Below are positions 3,971 to 11,429 of a DNA stretch of 64,000 nucleotides, piece after piece (position 1 is the stretch's first letter; the number at the start of each line of letters is the position of its first letter). Made by a program: the position numbers and the translations under genes. This DNA comes from Thermococcus sp. 21S9 (GTDB lineage: Archaea > Methanobacteriota_B > Thermococci > Thermococcales > Thermococcaceae). The stretch spans positions 1-64,000 of the forward strand of contig NZ_SNUS01000001.1 of assembly GCF_012027635.1 (NCBI RefSeq), in the 5' to 3' direction. The notes under the pieces were generated by a model. The model did no database searches. It was given only the letters and a program-made list of their open reading frames with translations, and was not told where the DNA came from.

Positions 3971-4951
3971 ATGAAGAGGCTCGCGCTCATAATCCTGCTA
4001 ACGCTCGCGCTGGTTCCGCTCAACGGCGTCTCGGCTCAGGAGAACGTCACGGTGGTGGCGACGATAGCGCCGATAGCGTCAATAGTTCAGGAGGCATTCC
4101 CGGGAGTTAAGGTTGAGGTGATAGTTCCGCCCGGGGTTGACCCGCACGACTATCAGCTGACGGCCCAGCAGGTCGAACTGCTCTCGAAGGCCCGGGTCAT
4201 AGTGACAACCGGAGGGCACCTGCCCGTTGAGAAGAGGATTGCGGAACTTGAGCAGGAAGGCACCGTAACGGGAAAGGCCCTCTTCGTGGACGACTACATG
4301 AAATACGGCTTCCACTACGCCAAGGAATACTGGTACAACGGCAAGGACAACCCTCACGGCGTCTGGCTTGACCCATACAACGCCATAGCCATAGCGAAAG
4401 CCACCGAGAAGGCCCTAATCGAGGAGGACCCGGCGAACGCGGTGACCTACGAGAGGGACTTTGAGAGGTTCCGCGAGAGGGTTCTTGCGATAGTCGAGGC
4501 CTACAAAGCCCTGGCTCCGAAGAACGCGACCGCAGTAATCCAGATGCCCCCCGACGAGTACGCCCTCGACTGGCTCGGGATTAAGGCGGTGGCCTCGATA
4601 AAGCCGGAGGAAGAGGTTCCTGCCATAGGAGTTGACCAGCTCGTCCCGACCGCAAAGAAGAGCTCGCTGGTAGTTTACGGCTCCGACAGCCCGGAACAGC
4701 TCAAGAAGGCCTCAATTGAGCTCGCCCAGAAGAGCGGGAAGCCCCTTGCGGAGATAACCGTTTTCTGGGCCTCGGGGAACTACACCAACTGGCTAATCAA
4801 AAACACCGCCTCGATAATGAAGGCACTCTTGACCCCCGAGAAGCCTGAGAAGCCGAGCAATGCAGAGAACACAGCCGTTACGTACGCTTTCCTGGCGCTC
4901 GTTACCGGAATCGTTCTGGGAACCGCGCTGGGAGTAATATTGAAAAAATGA
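3971..4951 (+). CDS. ZnuA-like metal ABC transporter substrate-binding protein
   Basis: 326 residues. Signal peptide 1-22, then a cluster A-I binding protein of the ZnuA/TroA family: VVATIAPIASIVQ near residue 28, candidate metal ligands His59 (DPHDY), His83 (GGHLP) and His129 (NPHGVWLDP), and the long helix typical of the family. Residues about 303-324 form a C-terminal membrane anchor instead of an N-terminal lipid, so it should sit on the outer face of the membrane. No permease or ATPase gene is adjacent, so its partners must be elsewhere. TATA-like CTTTAAAAG lies at 3930-3938. Zinc or manganese specificity is not visible. Confidence 0.85.
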   Translation: MKRLALIILLTLALVPLNGVSAQENVTVVATIAPIASIVQEAFPGVKVEVIVPPGVDPHDYQLTAQQVELLSKARVIVTTGGHLPVEKRIAELEQEGTVTGKALFVDDYMKYGFHYAKEYWYNGKDNPHGVWLDPYNAIAIAKATEKALIEEDPANAVTYERDFERFRERVLAIVEAYKALAPKNATAVIQMPPDEYALDWLGIKAVASIKPEEEVPAIGVDQLVPTAKKSSLVVYGSDSPEQLKKASIELAQKSGKPLAEITVFWASGNYTNWLIKNTASIMKALLTPEKPEKPSNAENTAVTYAFLALVTGIVLGTALGVILKK

Positions 4952-4956
4952 AAGGG

Positions 4957-5868
4957 TCACTCGCGCTTGTAGGGCCTGCCGTCCCACTTGGGTGGCCTTG
5001 CCCTTCCTATTATTCCCGCGACCACTATGAGGGTCACGACGTACGGCAGGGTCGCTATGAACTGCCAGGGTATCGTTCCCGCGAGCCACGGGTTGTTCTG
5101 GATGTAGATGGCGAAGTTGTCGAAGAATCCGAAGAGGAACGCTCCGCCGAGGGCTATCAGCGGGTTCCAGCCACTGAAGACCATGTTCGCCAGGGCGATG
5201 AAACCCCTTCCGGCCGCTATCGTCTTCGTTACGGTTCCGAGCCAGTCGACGCTGAGGTAGGCACCCGCGACACCCGCTAAGGCGCTCGCTATGAGGACCG
5301 CCGTGAAGCGGTAGAGCTCGACGTTTATTCCAAGGGCATCTGCAGCTTCGGGGTTCTCACCGACGGCGCGAATTCTCAGCCCGAATGGCGTCTTGAAGAG
5401 CACCCACCAGGCTATTATGGCGACCGCTATGGTTATCGGCACCATCGGACTGAGGGAGTTACCAAAGGCGTCCATCCACAGCGGGCTAATCTGGGCGTTG
5501 CTTGGAACCTGGTGCTGGCCGGCGGTTCCCCAGTAGGCCCTTATTCCGAAGGCGACTGCACCGTAGCCGAGGAGGTTGAGGCCTATACCTGGAATGACGT
5601 GGTCTCCCTTGAGGTAAACCGTTAGAACGCCGTGAAGGACGCCGAACAGCAGTCCTACGAATGCCCCACCGAGAATGCCGACCCAGCCGTTTCCTGCCAG
5701 CTCTGCAAACATCGCCCCGAAGAACGCCGCGAACATTAGGATTCCCTCGTAGCCGATGTTGACGACACCGGCTCTCTCGCTTATCACCGCACCTATGCTC
5801 GTCAGCGCTATCGGAACCATCGCCGCGAGTGAACCGAGGAGCAGACTGATTACCATTGCCTCGTTCAT
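4957..5868 (-). CDS. BMP-type nucleoside ABC transporter, permease 2
   Basis: 303-residue integral membrane protein with about eight to nine hydrophobic segments, of the BPD_transp_2 class (NupQ/YufQ-like). ERAGVVNIGYEGIL near residue 31 and GENPEAADALGIN near 170 are characteristic; the latter is the coupling loop that contacts the ATPase. It is the last gene of a four-gene operon and its ATG overlaps the stop of permease 1. A strong GGAGG site precedes the start. Substrate is most likely a nucleoside or related compound, by analogy with the BMP systems, but could be a sugar. Confidence 0.9.
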   Translation of the reverse strand: MNEAMVISLLLGSLAAMVPIALTSIGAVISERAGVVNIGYEGILMFAAFFGAMFAELAGNGWVGILGGAFVGLLFGVLHGVLTVYLKGDHVIPGIGLNLLGYGAVAFGIRAYWGTAGQHQVPSNAQISPLWMDAFGNSLSPMVPITIAVAIIAWWVLFKTPFGLRIRAVGENPEAADALGINVELYRFTAVLIASALAGVAGAYLSVDWLGTVTKTIAAGRGFIALANMVFSGWNPLIALGGAFLFGFFDNFAIYIQNNPWLAGTIPWQFIATLPYVVTLIVVAGIIGRARPPKWDGRPYKRE

Positions 5869-6911
5869 GCCTCCCCCCTCCTGAAGAGCTTGGCGAAGAG
5901 GTCTAGCAGTCCCGGAACGGCGACGGCTATGATGATTATTCCTTCAATGACCTTAATCATCTCCAGCGGAACGTGGGCGTGCTGCTGCATCGCGGTCGCT
6001 CCGGCACTCAGAGCTCCGAAGAGGATTCCCGCGAAGATTATTCCGAGCGGGTGGTTCCTGCCGACGAGGGAGACACCTATTCCGTCGAAACCGTAGCCGT
6101 AGACGTTTGCCAACCCCTGGGTTATAGCGTAACTCGGCGGGGTCCCCATGACGATGCCTGCCCCGGCCAGTCCGGCGGTCATTCCACCGATGACGAACGA
6201 CCATATGGCCGAGCGCTTGGGGTTAATTCCTCCGTACTCAGCCGCCCGCGGGTTCTGTCCGCTGGTTCTAAGCTCGTAGCCGAGCTTGGTGTGCCACATC
6301 ACTATGAAGACGATTATCGCCGAGAGGATTGCCACTATGAACGCCCAGGAAAGGCTCGTGTTCTTAACAAGGAGCGGAAGTCTGGCCGATGGTGGAACGG
6401 GGAGGGTGCTGTTGGGGTCCTTTGGGTTGTAGTAGACGCTGACCGCGAGCCAGCTGACGAGGAAGAATGCTATCCAGTTGAACATTATCGTGGATATGAC
6501 CTCGTGGACTCCCCTGTAAACCTTGAGAACTGCCGCTGGAAGGGCCCACAGGGCTCCGATGAGAAGGCCAGCGAGGAGGCCCGCTATCGGGTTCTGGAGG
6601 TACTGGGTCACTATTATCGCCGCTATAGCGCCGAAGTAGACGGTTCCCTCGGCGCCGATGTTGAAGAGGCCCGTTCTCGCACCTATGGCGAAGGTTATGG
6701 CCGTGAGGATTAGCGGAGCGGACTTTGCGAGGGTCTCGGCGATGCCGTCTGTGGAGCCCAGTGAACCCCTGATAAGCCAGTAGTAGGCCTCAAACGGACT
6801 GTACCCGCTGAACCAGAGGACGAGGGCACCTATGAACGCTCCAATGAGTATCGCCAAAACGCTCTCGGCCACGGGTTTGGCGTATCCCCTGAGCTCATTT
6901 TTGAGGTTCAC
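5865..6911 (-). CDS. BMP-type nucleoside ABC transporter, permease 1
   Basis: Membrane permease of the NupP/YufP type with about ten hydrophobic segments. ARTGLFNIGAEGTVYFG lies in the first third, and SGQNPRAAEYGGIN is the coupling loop. I place the start at GTG 6911, because the upstream GTG at 6920 is inside the GGAGGTG ribosome binding site. The gene overlaps the ATPase gene by 17 bases and permease 2 by 4 bases, so translation is coupled. It pairs with permease 2 to form the heterodimeric channel. Confidence 0.88.
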   Translation of the reverse strand: MNLKNELRGYAKPVAESVLAILIGAFIGALVLWFSGYSPFEAYYWLIRGSLGSTDGIAETLAKSAPLILTAITFAIGARTGLFNIGAEGTVYFGAIAAIIVTQYLQNPIAGLLAGLLIGALWALPAAVLKVYRGVHEVISTIMFNWIAFFLVSWLAVSVYYNPKDPNSTLPVPPSARLPLLVKNTSLSWAFIVAILSAIIVFIVMWHTKLGYELRTSGQNPRAAEYGGINPKRSAIWSFVIGGMTAGLAGAGIVMGTPPSYAITQGLANVYGYGFDGIGVSLVGRNHPLGIIFAGILFGALSAGATAMQQHAHVPLEMIKVIEGIIIIAVAVPGLLDLFAKLFRRGEA

Positions 6912-8430
6912 CCTTAACACCTCCCATCATGAGTCCAATCTGCTCCTCGGTAACCTCGTCGGGCTTGACTATTCCCATGAACTGGCCTTCGTACATTATC
7001 GCCATTCTATCGCTGAGCTGGAGAACCTCATCCAGGTCGGCAGAGACGAGCAGGACGGCCTTGTCCTCGTTCCTCAGCTTGACGAGGTAGTTCCTGATGT
7101 ACTCGGTCGAAGCGACGTCAACACCGCGCGTTGGCTGTGCCGCTATGATGAACTCGGGCTTCTTGCTGACTTCCCTAGCCACGATGAGCTTCTGCTGGTT
7201 TCCACCGCTCAGGCTCTTCACAGGTGATTTTGTTCCCGGCGCGCTGACCTCAAATTCCTCTATGAGCCTCTTCGCGTGCTCCTCAACTTTGTCCCAGTCG
7301 AGTAGGAAGCCCTTCGAGAACTCCTTCCTCCAGTGCATTCCCAGAATGGAGTTTTCCATCACGCTCATCTCAAGGATTAAGCCCATGTGAGTCCTGTCCT
7401 CGGGAATGTGTGCCATCCCCATGTCGTAGAGCTCCCTCGGCTTTTTACCGGTGATGTCAACGCCCTTGAGGTAAACTTTGCCCTTCTCGACCTTCCTCAG
7501 GCCGGCTATGGCCTCTATCAGCTCGCTCTGGCCGTTGCCCTCAACACCGGCTATGCCAAAAATCTCACCCGCGCGAACCTCGAAGGTAAGCCCTCTGACG
7601 GCGTCCTCGCCCCTGTCTCCCTTCACCCATAGGTCTTCGACGCGGAAGACGACGTCACCGGGCTCCTTCGGAGGCTTCTCAATCCTGAGAACGACGTCCC
7701 TGCCCACCATCATCCTCGCGAGGAGCTGGGGCGTTGCCTCACTCGTCTTGACGGTTCCGACGACCTCACCTTTCCTTATGACCGTGACGCGGTCGGTTAT
7801 CTCCATTACCTCGTTGAGCTTGTGGCTGATGAAGATTATCGTCTTCCCTTGCTCCTTGAGCTTTCTGAGAACCGCGAAGAGCTCTTTGACCTCTATAGGG
7901 GTAAGAACAGCGGTAGGCTCGTCCAGGATGAGTATGTCGACGTCGCGGTATAGCATCTTGAGGATTTCAATCCTCTGCTGGACGCCGACTGGGAGGTTTT
8001 CGACGGGGACGTCAAGGGGAACCTGGAAGTTGAGCTCGTCCATCAGCTTCTGGAGCTTCTTTCTCGCGTTCTCGACGTCAATCTTGGACAGCAGGCTGTG
8101 CCCCTCCATTCCGAGGATGATGTTCTCGAGGGCGTTGAAGACCTCAACGAGCGTGAAGTGCTGGTGAACCATTCCGATTCCGTTCGCTATTGCATCAGCG
8201 GGGCTCTTGAAGCGGACTTCTTTGCCCCTGAGAAAAATCTTGCCCTTCGTGGGCTTGAGCATTCCAAAGAGAATCTTCATCAGCGTCGTTTTTCCGGCAC
8301 CGTTCTCACCGAGGAGGCCAAGGATTTCGCCCTCGTAGACCTTAATCGTGACGCCTTTCAGGGCCTTTGTGCCGTCCGGGTAAATCTTCACGATATCACG
8401 CATCTCGAGCACTGGAGTCCTCTCTTCCAT
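6895..8430 (-). CDS. BMP-type nucleoside ABC transporter, duplicated ATPase
   Basis: About 511 residues with two ABC cassettes, the RbsA/NupO layout. The first has Walker A GENGAGKTT and Walker B ILILDEPTAVLT; the second has the degenerate Walker A GVEGNGQSE and signature SGGNQQK, with AAQPTRGVD in place of Walker B. This asymmetry is normal for sugar and nucleoside importers of this class. I choose ATG 8430 because AGGAGGTG ends eight bases upstream. It lies between the binding-protein gene and permease 1 in a single operon. Confidence 0.92.
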   Translation of the reverse strand: MEERTPVLEMRDIVKIYPDGTKALKGVTIKVYEGEILGLLGENGAGKTTLMKILFGMLKPTKGKIFLRGKEVRFKSPADAIANGIGMVHQHFTLVEVFNALENIILGMEGHSLLSKIDVENARKKLQKLMDELNFQVPLDVPVENLPVGVQQRIEILKMLYRDVDILILDEPTAVLTPIEVKELFAVLRKLKEQGKTIIFISHKLNEVMEITDRVTVIRKGEVVGTVKTSEATPQLLARMMVGRDVVLRIEKPPKEPGDVVFRVEDLWVKGDRGEDAVRGLTFEVRAGEIFGIAGVEGNGQSELIEAIAGLRKVEKGKVYLKGVDITGKKPRELYDMGMAHIPEDRTHMGLILEMSVMENSILGMHWRKEFSKGFLLDWDKVEEHAKRLIEEFEVSAPGTKSPVKSLSGGNQQKLIVAREVSKKPEFIIAAQPTRGVDVASTEYIRNYLVKLRNEDKAVLLVSADLDEVLQLSDRMAIMYEGQFMGIVKPDEVTEEQIGLMMGGVKGEPQK

Positions 8431-8472
8431 TGCTTTCACCTCCTAAAAGGAAGAAGAACAAAGGGAAGGAAA

Positions 8473-9774
8473 TCACTGCTTGTGGTTCTTGTAGTAGTCG
8501 AGGGCCCAGTAGGCACCGAAGCGGTAACCGCCCTCGAACTTGTAGAGAACCGGAATCTCCATACCGAGGACGATACCGATGGTGTCCTTGTGGTCGTTGA
8601 GGGCTATCAGAGCGGCGAGCGCTCCGGCCAGGGCTGAACCCTCGTTCTCCTTAAAGAGAACCATCTGAACGTTGTGTGGCATCTCCGGGTCGTAACCGTC
8701 GATGATGACGAACCTCTGGTTCGGGTACTCCTTGGCGACCTGCTTGACGGCGTTGGTCATCATGAAACCGACGGCGATGATTATGTCGTACTCACCGCTC
8801 TTGGCAAGGCTCCTGAGGTTCGGGAGGTAGTCGTTCTCGCTGTTGCTCTGAAGTTCGGTAAGCTGGAGGCCGAACTCCTTCGCGGCCCTCTCGGCACCCA
8901 TGTAAGCCATATCGTTAAAGCTGAGGTCACCCCTACCACCGACATCGTAAACGATGGCTATCTTCTTGGTGTTCTTCCTCTCGTTGAGGGTCTTGTTGAA
9001 GTAGGTCTCGGGCTTGGGCTCCTTGGCCGCCCACTCCTTGGCGTACTGCTCCATAACAGTCCAGTTCTGGGCCTTCCTGAGGAGCTCAATCTGGTCCTTC
9101 GAGGTGGCCTTCGGGACGATTATCTGACCGCTGATTATCTGCTTCTGAAGGTCATCAACGGCCTGCCAAATCCAGTCGGGAACCTGCTTCCTGGTCTGCT
9201 CGAGGAACTGGATGAGCTGGTCTTCATTCTCAAATCCAAGGTCCTTGAGCTTCTTCTCCCTGACGTCAGCGGGGAGGGAGTCGAACATTGCCTTAACGTC
9301 ATCTATGGTTGAGAGCTTGACACCGCCCTCCTTGAGACCGAGCTCAACAACACCGCCCTTGAACTGGTTCTCCTCGGCCTCCTTGACGGCGTTGTAAACA
9401 CCGACGTCAACGCGCTTCATCATGCTCGCGATTATAACACCGGGCTTAATCCAGTCCTGGGCTGAGTCAACGCCTATAGCGAACGGCGGACCCATCTTCT
9501 TGTTGTTGGCCTTCAGATAGTCACCAACGGCCTCGAAGACACCGAGACCGGTACCGCCGGCAACCTGGTAGATAACCCAGGCACCCTGCTGAAGCTGGGC
9601 CTGAGCGGCCTGCTTACCCTTGGCAGGGTCGCCGAATGACCCCGTGTAGGTGTAGAGGATGTTTATTTTAGTTTGGGTCTCAGTGCTGCTGCTGGAGCTA
9701 CTACTTATACAGCCGCTGGCCACGATGCTAAGGGCCATCAGGCCCACCAACAACAAACCGAACAGCTTTCGCAT
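8473..9774 (-). CDS. BMP-family substrate-binding lipoprotein with swapped (circularly permuted) halves
   Basis: 433 residues, first gene of the importer operon. Lipobox VASGC places the lipidated Cys at 22, followed by a Ser-rich tether. The order of the BMP fold is unusual. Residues 36-143 (YTGSFGDPAKGK, GGTGLGVFEA, AIGVDSAQDW, MMKRVDVGVY) normally form the C-terminal half, whereas residues 271-433 (IAIVYDVGGRGDLSFND, SNSENDYLPNL, FKENEGSALAGALAA) normally form the N-terminal half. A helical linker (144-270) joins them. The total length is normal and the frame is intact, so it should fold as a permuted protein. Predicted role: capture of nucleosides outside the cell. Confidence 0.85.
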   Translation of the reverse strand: MRKLFGLLLVGLMALSIVASGCISSSSSSSTETQTKINILYTYTGSFGDPAKGKQAAQAQLQQGAWVIYQVAGGTGLGVFEAVGDYLKANNKKMGPPFAIGVDSAQDWIKPGVIIASMMKRVDVGVYNAVKEAEENQFKGGVVELGLKEGGVKLSTIDDVKAMFDSLPADVREKKLKDLGFENEDQLIQFLEQTRKQVPDWIWQAVDDLQKQIISGQIIVPKATSKDQIELLRKAQNWTVMEQYAKEWAAKEPKPETYFNKTLNERKNTKKIAIVYDVGGRGDLSFNDMAYMGAERAAKEFGLQLTELQSNSENDYLPNLRSLAKSGEYDIIIAVGFMMTNAVKQVAKEYPNQRFVIIDGYDPEMPHNVQMVLFKENEGSALAGALAALIALNDHKDTIGIVLGMEIPVLYKFEGGYRFGAYWALDYYKNHKQ

Positions 9775-9903: not shown

Positions 9904-10383
9904 ATGCTGAGGGAGATACTTACGCTCGAATCCGGAACGGTGATGATTTCTGGCGGAGGTAAGAGGCTCGCAAGGCTCTACTTCCAATCGTGGGCTAAAA
10001 GAAAGGGAAGAGCACTGGCGGAAGAACTTCCGTTCCCTGTCGAGGGAGAAATCTACGTCGGCAACCCCTTCAAGGCGGACTTTCCCGTTTACCTCGTCGT
10101 CAACCCCCTCTCTCGAAAGGGAGCAGAGCGCGAGAAACTACTCCGCTGGCTCGATGAGAAGAGGAGAGAAGATAAGCTCGTCCTCCTCTACGAGGAGCGC
10201 TACGTTGGAGATTCGATAACCCGATACAAAATCAGAAACCACCTCGACTACCTCATAGCTTACAAAAGGGAGACTATGGGAGCCGAGCTATTGAAGGTTT
10301 ATAAGCTCGAAGACGGTCGCGTCGTTGAGAGGAAGACCTACGTAAGGCGCCCGATGACGAGTGGCTTCGGGTCTGAGCGGTGA
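9904..10383 (+). CDS. Conserved hypothetical protein, 159 residues
   Basis: I do not recognise this family. The protein is soluble and basic, with no signal peptide. It has a glycine-rich ISGGGKRLARLY segment near residue 16 and a beta strand PVYLVVNPLSRKG near residue 60, with many Arg/Lys residues suggesting nucleic-acid or nucleotide contact. AAAGGGAGG precedes the ATG. It diverges from the BMP operon. The last twelve codons overlap a candidate C/D-box guide RNA on the same strand (10349-10406), so the C-terminus may be shaped by the RNA rather than by protein function. Confidence 0.65.
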   Translation: MLREILTLESGTVMISGGGKRLARLYFQSWAKRKGRALAEELPFPVEGEIYVGNPFKADFPVYLVVNPLSRKGAEREKLLRWLDEKRREDKLVLLYEERYVGDSITRYKIRNHLDYLIAYKRETMGAELLKVYKLEDGRVVERKTYVRRPMTSGFGSER

Positions 10384-10406
10384 TGACACCAGCTATCGCC
10401 GAGGGC
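10349..10406 (+). ncRNA. Candidate C/D-box 2'-O-methylation guide sRNA
   Basis: The order is C-like box GATGA (10353), 15-base guide, D' box CTGA (10373-10376), three bases, C' box GTGATGA (10380-10386), 12-base guide, and D-like box CCGA (10399-10402). GCCC at 10349-10352 can pair with GGGC at 10403-10406, and TTTT follows. The D' guide ends CTTCGGGT, complementary to ACCCGAAG; ACCCGAA is the conserved helix-35 sequence of 23S rRNA as I remember it. The terminal C and D boxes deviate from RTGATGA and CTGA in the same way as in the second candidate at 23670. It overlaps the end of the preceding gene. Confidence 0.5.
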
Positions 10407-10445
10407 TTTTTATAGGCCTTCCCCCTCTTTTCTCCGGGTGAGAGC

Positions 10446-11429
10446 ATGTTCGGAAAGCTCAGGGAGAAGCTCAAGAAGTTCACCAGGCAGGTCGAGGAGA
10501 AGATTGAGGAGGAAGAGAAGAAGGTCGAAAAGACCGAGCCGGAAAAGAAGCCCGGCCTCATGGAGAGACTTCTCCAGGTCGAGATTAAGGAGAAGGACGT
10601 TGAGGAAGCTCTGGACGAACTGGAGCTTGAACTCCTCGAGGCGGACGTTGCCCTCGAGACCGTCGAGGCCCTGAGGGAGAAGATTAAGGAGAAGCTGGTC
10701 GGAAAGAAGGTCCGCATCGGAACAAACAAGGGCAAGCTGATAGAGGAAGCGCTCCGCGAGGCAATCCTCGAAATCCTCACTCCGGAGAAGAAGATTGACC
10801 TCCTCGAGATGATTCGCTCCAAGGAGGAGAAGCCCTTCGTGATAGTCTTCGTCGGCTTCAACGGCTCGGGGAAGACGACAACTATAGCCAAGCTCGCCAG
10901 CTGGCTCAAGAAGAACGGGCTAAGCGTCGTCATAGCGGCGAGCGACACGTTTAGGGCTGGAGCGATAGAGCAGATAGAGGAGCACGCGAAGCGCGTTGGG
11001 GTTAAGGTGATAAAGCACGACTACGGAGCGGACCCAGCTGCCGTTGCATACGACGCAATCCAGCACGCCAAGGCAAGGGGAGTTGATGTAGTTCTCGTGG
11101 ACACCGCCGGGAGGAACGAGCTCAACAGGAACCTCATGGACGAGATGAAGAAGATAGTCCGCGTCACCAAGCCCGACCTAGTAATCTTCGTTGGCGACAG
11201 CCTGAGCGGAAACGCCGTTGTGGAGCAGGCCAAGCAGTTCAACGAGGCCGTCAGGATAGACGGCGTAATCCTCACCAAGCTCGATGCGGACGCGAGGGGT
11301 GGAGCGGCTTTGAGCATAAGCCACGCGATTGGCGCGCCGATACTCTTCGCCGGCGTCGGCCAGGGCTACGACGACCTAAAGCCCTTCGACGAAAAGTGGT
11401 TCGTGGACAGGATTTTCGGGGAGGATTGA
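10446..11429 (+). CDS. ftsY: Signal recognition particle receptor FtsY
   Basis: 327 residues, the GTPase that docks SRP-bound ribosomes at the membrane for co-translational insertion. An acidic and basic charged N-terminal region (1-60) is followed by the helical N domain and the G domain: [15 protein letters not shown] (G1), [10 protein letters not shown] (G2 region), DTAGRNE (G3) and [10 protein letters not shown] (G4 area). There is no membrane span, as expected. The start follows GGGTGAGAGC. The 62-base gap before it holds most of the candidate guide RNA and its T tract. Confidence 0.97.

Follow-up and report, generated by a model that had tools for sequence, protein, structure and literature searches.

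The window, a stretch of 64,000 nucleotides from Thermococcus sp. 21S9, very probably encodes a circularly permuted NupD, the binding protein of the NupDABC importer, in a form that arose once and spread together with its ATPase and permeases by replacement at the same locus. We propose that the gene encodes a lipid-anchored nucleoside-binding protein with a PnrA/BMP fold, in which a single permutation event would have joined the old termini by a linker of about 23 residues and opened new ones in a loop of the C-lobe. The permuted mature domain, the ATPase and both permeases would then have spread among Thermococcus, displacing the canonical operon at its locus through homologous recombination. 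The upstream crossovers would lie at or close to the signal peptide or promoter, and the downstream ones close to the TMD2 end.

The ORF at 8473-9774 on the minus strand, placed there already by the earlier note, is uninterrupted and encodes 433 aa. The lipobox VASGC (residues 18-22) is also present in the orthologues, and the protein has the features of a lipoprotein with predicted lipidation. PF02608 (Bmp/PnrA) aligns to it as two distinct segments (E 9e-52; 176 bits, the cut-off being 24), the first half of the profile (positions 4-149) aligning to residues 273-421, at the C-terminal end. The match is thus significant, but the family's order of N-half followed by C-half is not observed. Judged from sequence, the protein is a permuted derivative that is homologous to this family and would work like it. 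In the alignment with PDB 4pev, residues 256-423 match chain residues 39-211 and residues 35-220 match 218-395; since the halves are matched in opposite succession, their order is reversed. Structure alignments based on AlphaFold2 models covered the window protein and related loci. The model of the window protein (pLDDT 85, pTM 0.86) contains the expected set of elements, and Foldseek found it colinear with 4pev over just 164 columns (TM 0.35-0.39), whereas a canonical orthologue from Thermococcus, modelled with pLDDT 91, was colinear over 386 columns (TM 0.78-0.80). The chain is truly circularly permuted. The earlier note had described a BMP-family lipoprotein with swapped halves, permuted at a loop of its periplasmic-binding-protein fold, whose lipobox Cys22 and signal were retained at the new front, ahead of the ancestral C-half. 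This description is borne out, the fold being of type I, and the family alignment and structure modelling that it proposed as checks both gave the reversed order.

The helix YRFGxxWAxDYY and the strand I(N/D)ILYTYTG flank the C-lobe loop in which the new ends lie. At this site the canonical loop reads ...YRFGVKWAEDYYKQKTGKDVNIDVLYQYTG..., and the permuted chain comes to its end within the loop that reads YYKQKTGKDV-IDVLY in canonical proteins. The last residues of permuted proteins are ...YRFGAYWALDYYKNHKQ, while their first strand, INILYTYTG, comes after the lipobox and a spacer of 10-23 residues. In the window, the C-half contains this strand (INILYTYTGSF), GGTGLGVF, GVDSAQDW and KRVDVGVY, followed by the helical tail of the ancestral C-terminus. 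On average, it is 68% identical to the corresponding half of canonical orthologues. Canonical C-termini read ...WQEMEQLAK or ...MEELAKQWESSS. From this end point, the permuted chain runs about 23 residues further (AAKEPKPETYFNKTLNERKNTKK in the window) into IAIVYDVGG, and this linker is kept in all permuted members and missing from canonical proteins. A long helical linker had been suggested in the earlier note. A linker does join the old C-terminus to the old N-terminus, but most of the proposed stretch is ancestral, since residues ~144-248 are a C-terminal tail that canonical orthologues also have, and only residues ~249-271 are new in the alignment (Table 1).

Table 1. Coordinates of the permuted gene, its operon and the flanking genes in the window.
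Feature	Position	Strand	Basis
Signal peptide, residues 1-21	9712..9774	-	ORF, orthologue alignment
Lipobox Cys22 and Ser/Thr-rich tether, residues 22-36	9667..9711	-	Spacers compared across orthologues
Ancestral C-half, residues 37-248, now in front	9031..9666	-	PF02608, 4pev and orthologue alignments
New linker, residues ~249-271 (AAKEPKPETYFNKTLNERKNTKK)	8962..9030	-	Alignment of permuted and canonical orthologues
Ancestral N-half, residues 272-433 (IAIVYDVGGRGDLSFND ... YRFGAYWALDYYKNHKQ), now C-terminal	8476..8961	-	Profile, structure, alignments, model
ATPase gene of the cassette (ABC type), orthologous to TK0658/NupA	6895..8439	-	ORF, synteny, tree
ABC permease 1 (TMD1), part of the cassette	5865..6920	-	ORF, synteny, tree
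ABC permease 2 (TMD2), downstream crossovers near its end	4957..5868	-	ORF, synteny, tree
znuA-like gene, convergent, flank beyond the cassette	3971..4951	+	Synteny, trees, identity
Upstream flank, divergent, beyond the cassette: ORF 9904-10383 and ftsY 10446-11429	9904..11429	+	Synteny, trees

The gene was found in 90 of 94 Thermococcaceae genomes, normally as one copy per genome, and in 57 of the 61 within the genus Thermococcus; many genomes in this survey are MAGs. The permuted order is present in 22 of the 57 gene-bearing Thermococcus genomes (one of them cut by a contig end). As one of these, G006, carries the canonical form as well, at its native locus, about 21 of 57 species are natively permuted. 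The remaining Thermococcus carry the canonical form at the same locus, and the other five Thermococcaceae genera are canonical wherever both halves could be ordered. Outside Thermococcus, the permuted order was absent from the examined genomes of the phylum, and plasmid matches to the protein, compared by identity alone, were all below 60% identity. The earlier note had held that its reading would fail if the same order were found throughout Thermococcales or in PF02608 itself. Such a shared order is contradicted by the canonical order of most Thermococcaceae. Its statement that known families have the opposite order agrees with most orthologues of the family, but not with the permuted TK0657, described in 2025.

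Since the draft assembly of the window genome comprises 84 contigs, the junctions could be thought to come from a chimeric contig or another assembly artefact at 8960 or 9660, and the earlier note had pointed to 8960 and 9660-9670 as places to look for one. We practically dismiss this explanation. The examination of other Thermococcus orthologues revealed the same junctions in about 20 other genomes, including the independently assembled single-contig chromosomes G036, G074, G005, G034 and G011 and the nearly single-contig G073. In addition, T. kodakarensis KOD1 was deeply re-sequenced, and mutations of TK0657 were located within its permuted frame (PMC12628685). A two-gene fusion or a paralogue was also rejected, since genomes normally have a single copy, whose signal peptide is common to canonical sisters.

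Some individual genomes deserve mention. G006, a MAG with 53% completeness, has a permuted and a canonical copy on separate contigs (L038 and L044) with flanks of different lineages, the canonical copy being at the native locus and the permuted 5-kb contig being flanked as in the window's clade. For these reasons it was set aside as a genome with both forms, and its two copies are likely the result of mis-binning, despite the low reported contamination. In G023 (L068, G023:C20), a member of Thermococcus, a Pyrococcus-type BMP operon (47% identity) replaces the type of the genus. The canonical binding protein of G081 (L165) has lost its C-terminal tail, with an apparent frameshift, and ends in ...EEAQAEDHQR.

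Trees were built with IQ-TREE and branch supports were computed with treekit. On the host tree (rpoB, rpoA' and rpoA''), the permuted form occupies one wholly permuted core clade, which includes the window genome, and isolated tips or pairs, several of them beside canonical sisters. This tree requires at least 10 switches between the forms, and constraining the permuted species to one clade was rejected (p-AU 1.2e-37). Trees of the flanking genes show 11 changes. On the other hand, a single clade (one change, support 100) holds the permuted copies in the trees of the three ABC genes, the whole BMP and the BMP N-half. The N-half tree looked non-monophyletic when rooted on the distant Pyrococcus, and gave one clade without that long branch. 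None of the five host clades tested is compatible with the ABC genes (p-AU between 3e-6 and 4e-50). Recurrent, independent permutation in several Thermococcus lineages would fit the scattered distribution on the species tree, but we consider it very improbable, since the unpermuted ABC genes travel together with the permuted copies and both BMP halves fall in one clade, as the three ABC genes do. The common cut loop, the conserved linker and the single clade in the BMP, ATPase and permease trees indicate that the permutation arose once. No duplicated intermediate of the permutation was found. The direction of replacement is uncertain at some tips, and the pair G021/G095, placed beside G011, could represent reversals to the canonical form.

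Both forms are found in Thermococcus at one locus (ftsY - small ORF - BMP - ATPase - TMD1 - TMD2 - znuA-like), with occasional insertions in its flanks, and the upstream flank genes track the species tree. Mean protein identity between permuted and canonical cassette genes is 60-79%, with TMD1 being the most divergent (~60%), followed by TMD2 (67%) and the ATPase (79%). In sister pairs with one permuted and one canonical member, the cassette genes are 63-77% identical, against 89-96% for RNA polymerase and 80-90% for the znuA-like flank. In five of these pairs, identity drops from the host level to ~63-77% at the signal peptide/promoter and recovers near the end of TMD2, and because of these borders we conclude that the mature protein and the three transporter genes move as one cassette of ~4.7 kb. 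The upstream crossovers map to the signal peptide or promoter or close to them, where the blocks of the clearest pairs are 92-98% identical to their canonical sisters (G082 and G077 share 93-98% identity through promoter and signal peptide). In most transfers, signal peptide and promoter remain with the host lineage. The genome G025 has the G082-type signal peptide and ~240 nt of common upstream sequence, a likeness that points to a recent transfer between these lineages. The downstream crossovers are near the end of TMD2, with identity rising from ~56-83% to ~80-95% in the clearest pairs. The signal peptide would be a natural crossover point, since it is the last upstream stretch where both forms are still colinear.

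These patterns are most simply explained if the permutation happened once and the cassette was afterwards replaced repeatedly by homologous exchange. A different history, in which the operon was duplicated long ago and its copies were lost differentially without transfer, might explain why the divergence between the two operon types is about as large as that between genera (TMD1 has 60% identity between types and 64% to other genera). However, both types occupy one locus with crossovers at repeatable positions, and no genome credibly holds both there, G006 being an incomplete MAG with foreign flanks and the second BMP of G082 being a kinase fusion located elsewhere. Moreover, distant permuted pairs are closer in the cassette than in the flanks, as in G005-G036, with 87-92% identity in the cassette versus 62% in ORF9904 and the znuA-like flanks. 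Duplication and loss is therefore quite unlikely. We only tentatively extend the account of cassette replacement to a reading, which we hold to be somewhat doubtful, in which the genus would have two exchangeable operon alleles, the permuted protein having become co-adapted to its own permeases since its anchor moved to the other lobe. Only the full four-gene cassette could then be swapped, as would have been done repeatedly, with crossovers at the signal peptide/promoter and the TMD2 end. The high divergence of TMD1 and TMD2 between alleles is a possible sign of such co-adaptation with the binding protein.

Alignments and motif positions revealed that the nucleoside pocket motifs DVGGxxDxSFND, GF, YxGSFxDxxKG, GGTGxGVF, GVDxxQ and KR are present in the window protein, and since they are kept it would be expected to bind nucleosides and to close in the manner of the canonical proteins. 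As the signal peptide and lipobox precede the new first strand, the lipid would hold the C-lobe and not the N-lobe. In T. kodakarensis, TK0657 contributes to nucleoside uptake as part of a transporter (TK0657-0660) named NupDABC, and conservation of its pocket has been reported (PMC12628685). Its mutations T39M and K117E were found in a nucleoside-using strain, and its deletion in the evolved strain ALE22 abolished growth on guanosine, inosine and cytidine (PMC12628685). The mutation coordinates, 559628 and 559861, fall inside G011:C1:559522-560802, so that G011 is KOD1. T39 is on the strand that is now first and corresponds to window residue 42 in an alignment read by eye, while K117 corresponds to residue 120.

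Compared with the canonical binding protein, the permuted one has diverged more from other genera (N-half 73.4% versus 80.5% identity for the canonical; C-half 67.2% versus 71.3%), while for the ABC genes this is not clearly so (ATPase 80.1 versus 80.2, TMD1 63.6 versus 64.4, TMD2 69.3 versus 71.0). At the sequence level, the binding protein of the permuted lineage may thus have undergone additional change, although exchange among canonical lineages could contribute. It might also be taken as a mark of a protein that is degenerate or has changed its function, which seems very improbable to us in view of the open frame, the mean identity of 83-90% across permuted species, the preserved pocket motifs and the requirement of ALE22 for TK0657.

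TK0657/NupD is the direct orthologue of the window protein, colinear with it at 84% identity over residues 3-433 and found in the same locus and operon. Its "flipped domain arrangement" relative to PnrA was seen in an AlphaFold3 model in October 2025 (PMC12628685), and the permuted protein was therefore already known. That paper deals with one species and is silent on the distribution, the exact breakpoints, the single origin and the exchange with the canonical form. We found no report of the distribution, single origin or cassette exchange of the permuted form in the open-access literature, and these appear to be new. The canonical PnrA/BmpA proteins (PF02608; PDB 2FQW, 6Y9U, 7X0R, 6SHU, 4PEV) have homologous halves, pocket motifs and operon type, whereas the window protein has swapped halves, a new linker and, as modelled, a tether on the other lobe. 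The canonical Thermococcus orthologues (for example G015, G077 and G021) share its locus, operon and signal peptide and have the canonical order. MglB-2 of T. pallidum (Tp0684; "cluster Bc", PMC4990184, 2016) is likewise a naturally permuted, lipid-anchored type I ABC binding protein. However, it binds sugar, is cut in the N-lobe with an extra (fourth) hinge crossing and has a poorly conserved permuted part (PMC4990184), and it is not known to alternate with a canonical form inside a genus. With its cut in the C-lobe, the window protein would work like cluster Bc but is no member of it.

Natural circular permutations are usually noticed only across large evolutionary distances. In Thermococcus, permuted and canonical forms (~70% identical) occupy one locus in sister species, and since KOD1 is genetically tractable, the effects of the permutation on fitness and transport would be testable at the native locus. 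The repeated replacement of the whole cassette is also a way to ask if topology and lipid anchor must match the permeases.

The second copy in G082, which has the canonical order, was set aside, since it is a BMP-kinase fusion and does not belong to this operon. This 1071-aa frame (L051:7296-10511, G082:C1) contains a BMP/PnrA domain in canonical order, 68-75% identical to the operon binding protein. According to Pfam, it consists of a signal peptide, BMP/PnrA, a Ser/Thr-rich stretch, one transmembrane segment, DUF7662 and a Ser/Thr protein kinase, and is apparently an archaeal receptor kinase with a putative nucleoside-type sensor. Its kinase portion belongs to a multi-copy family present in 45 of the 94 Thermococcaceae genomes.
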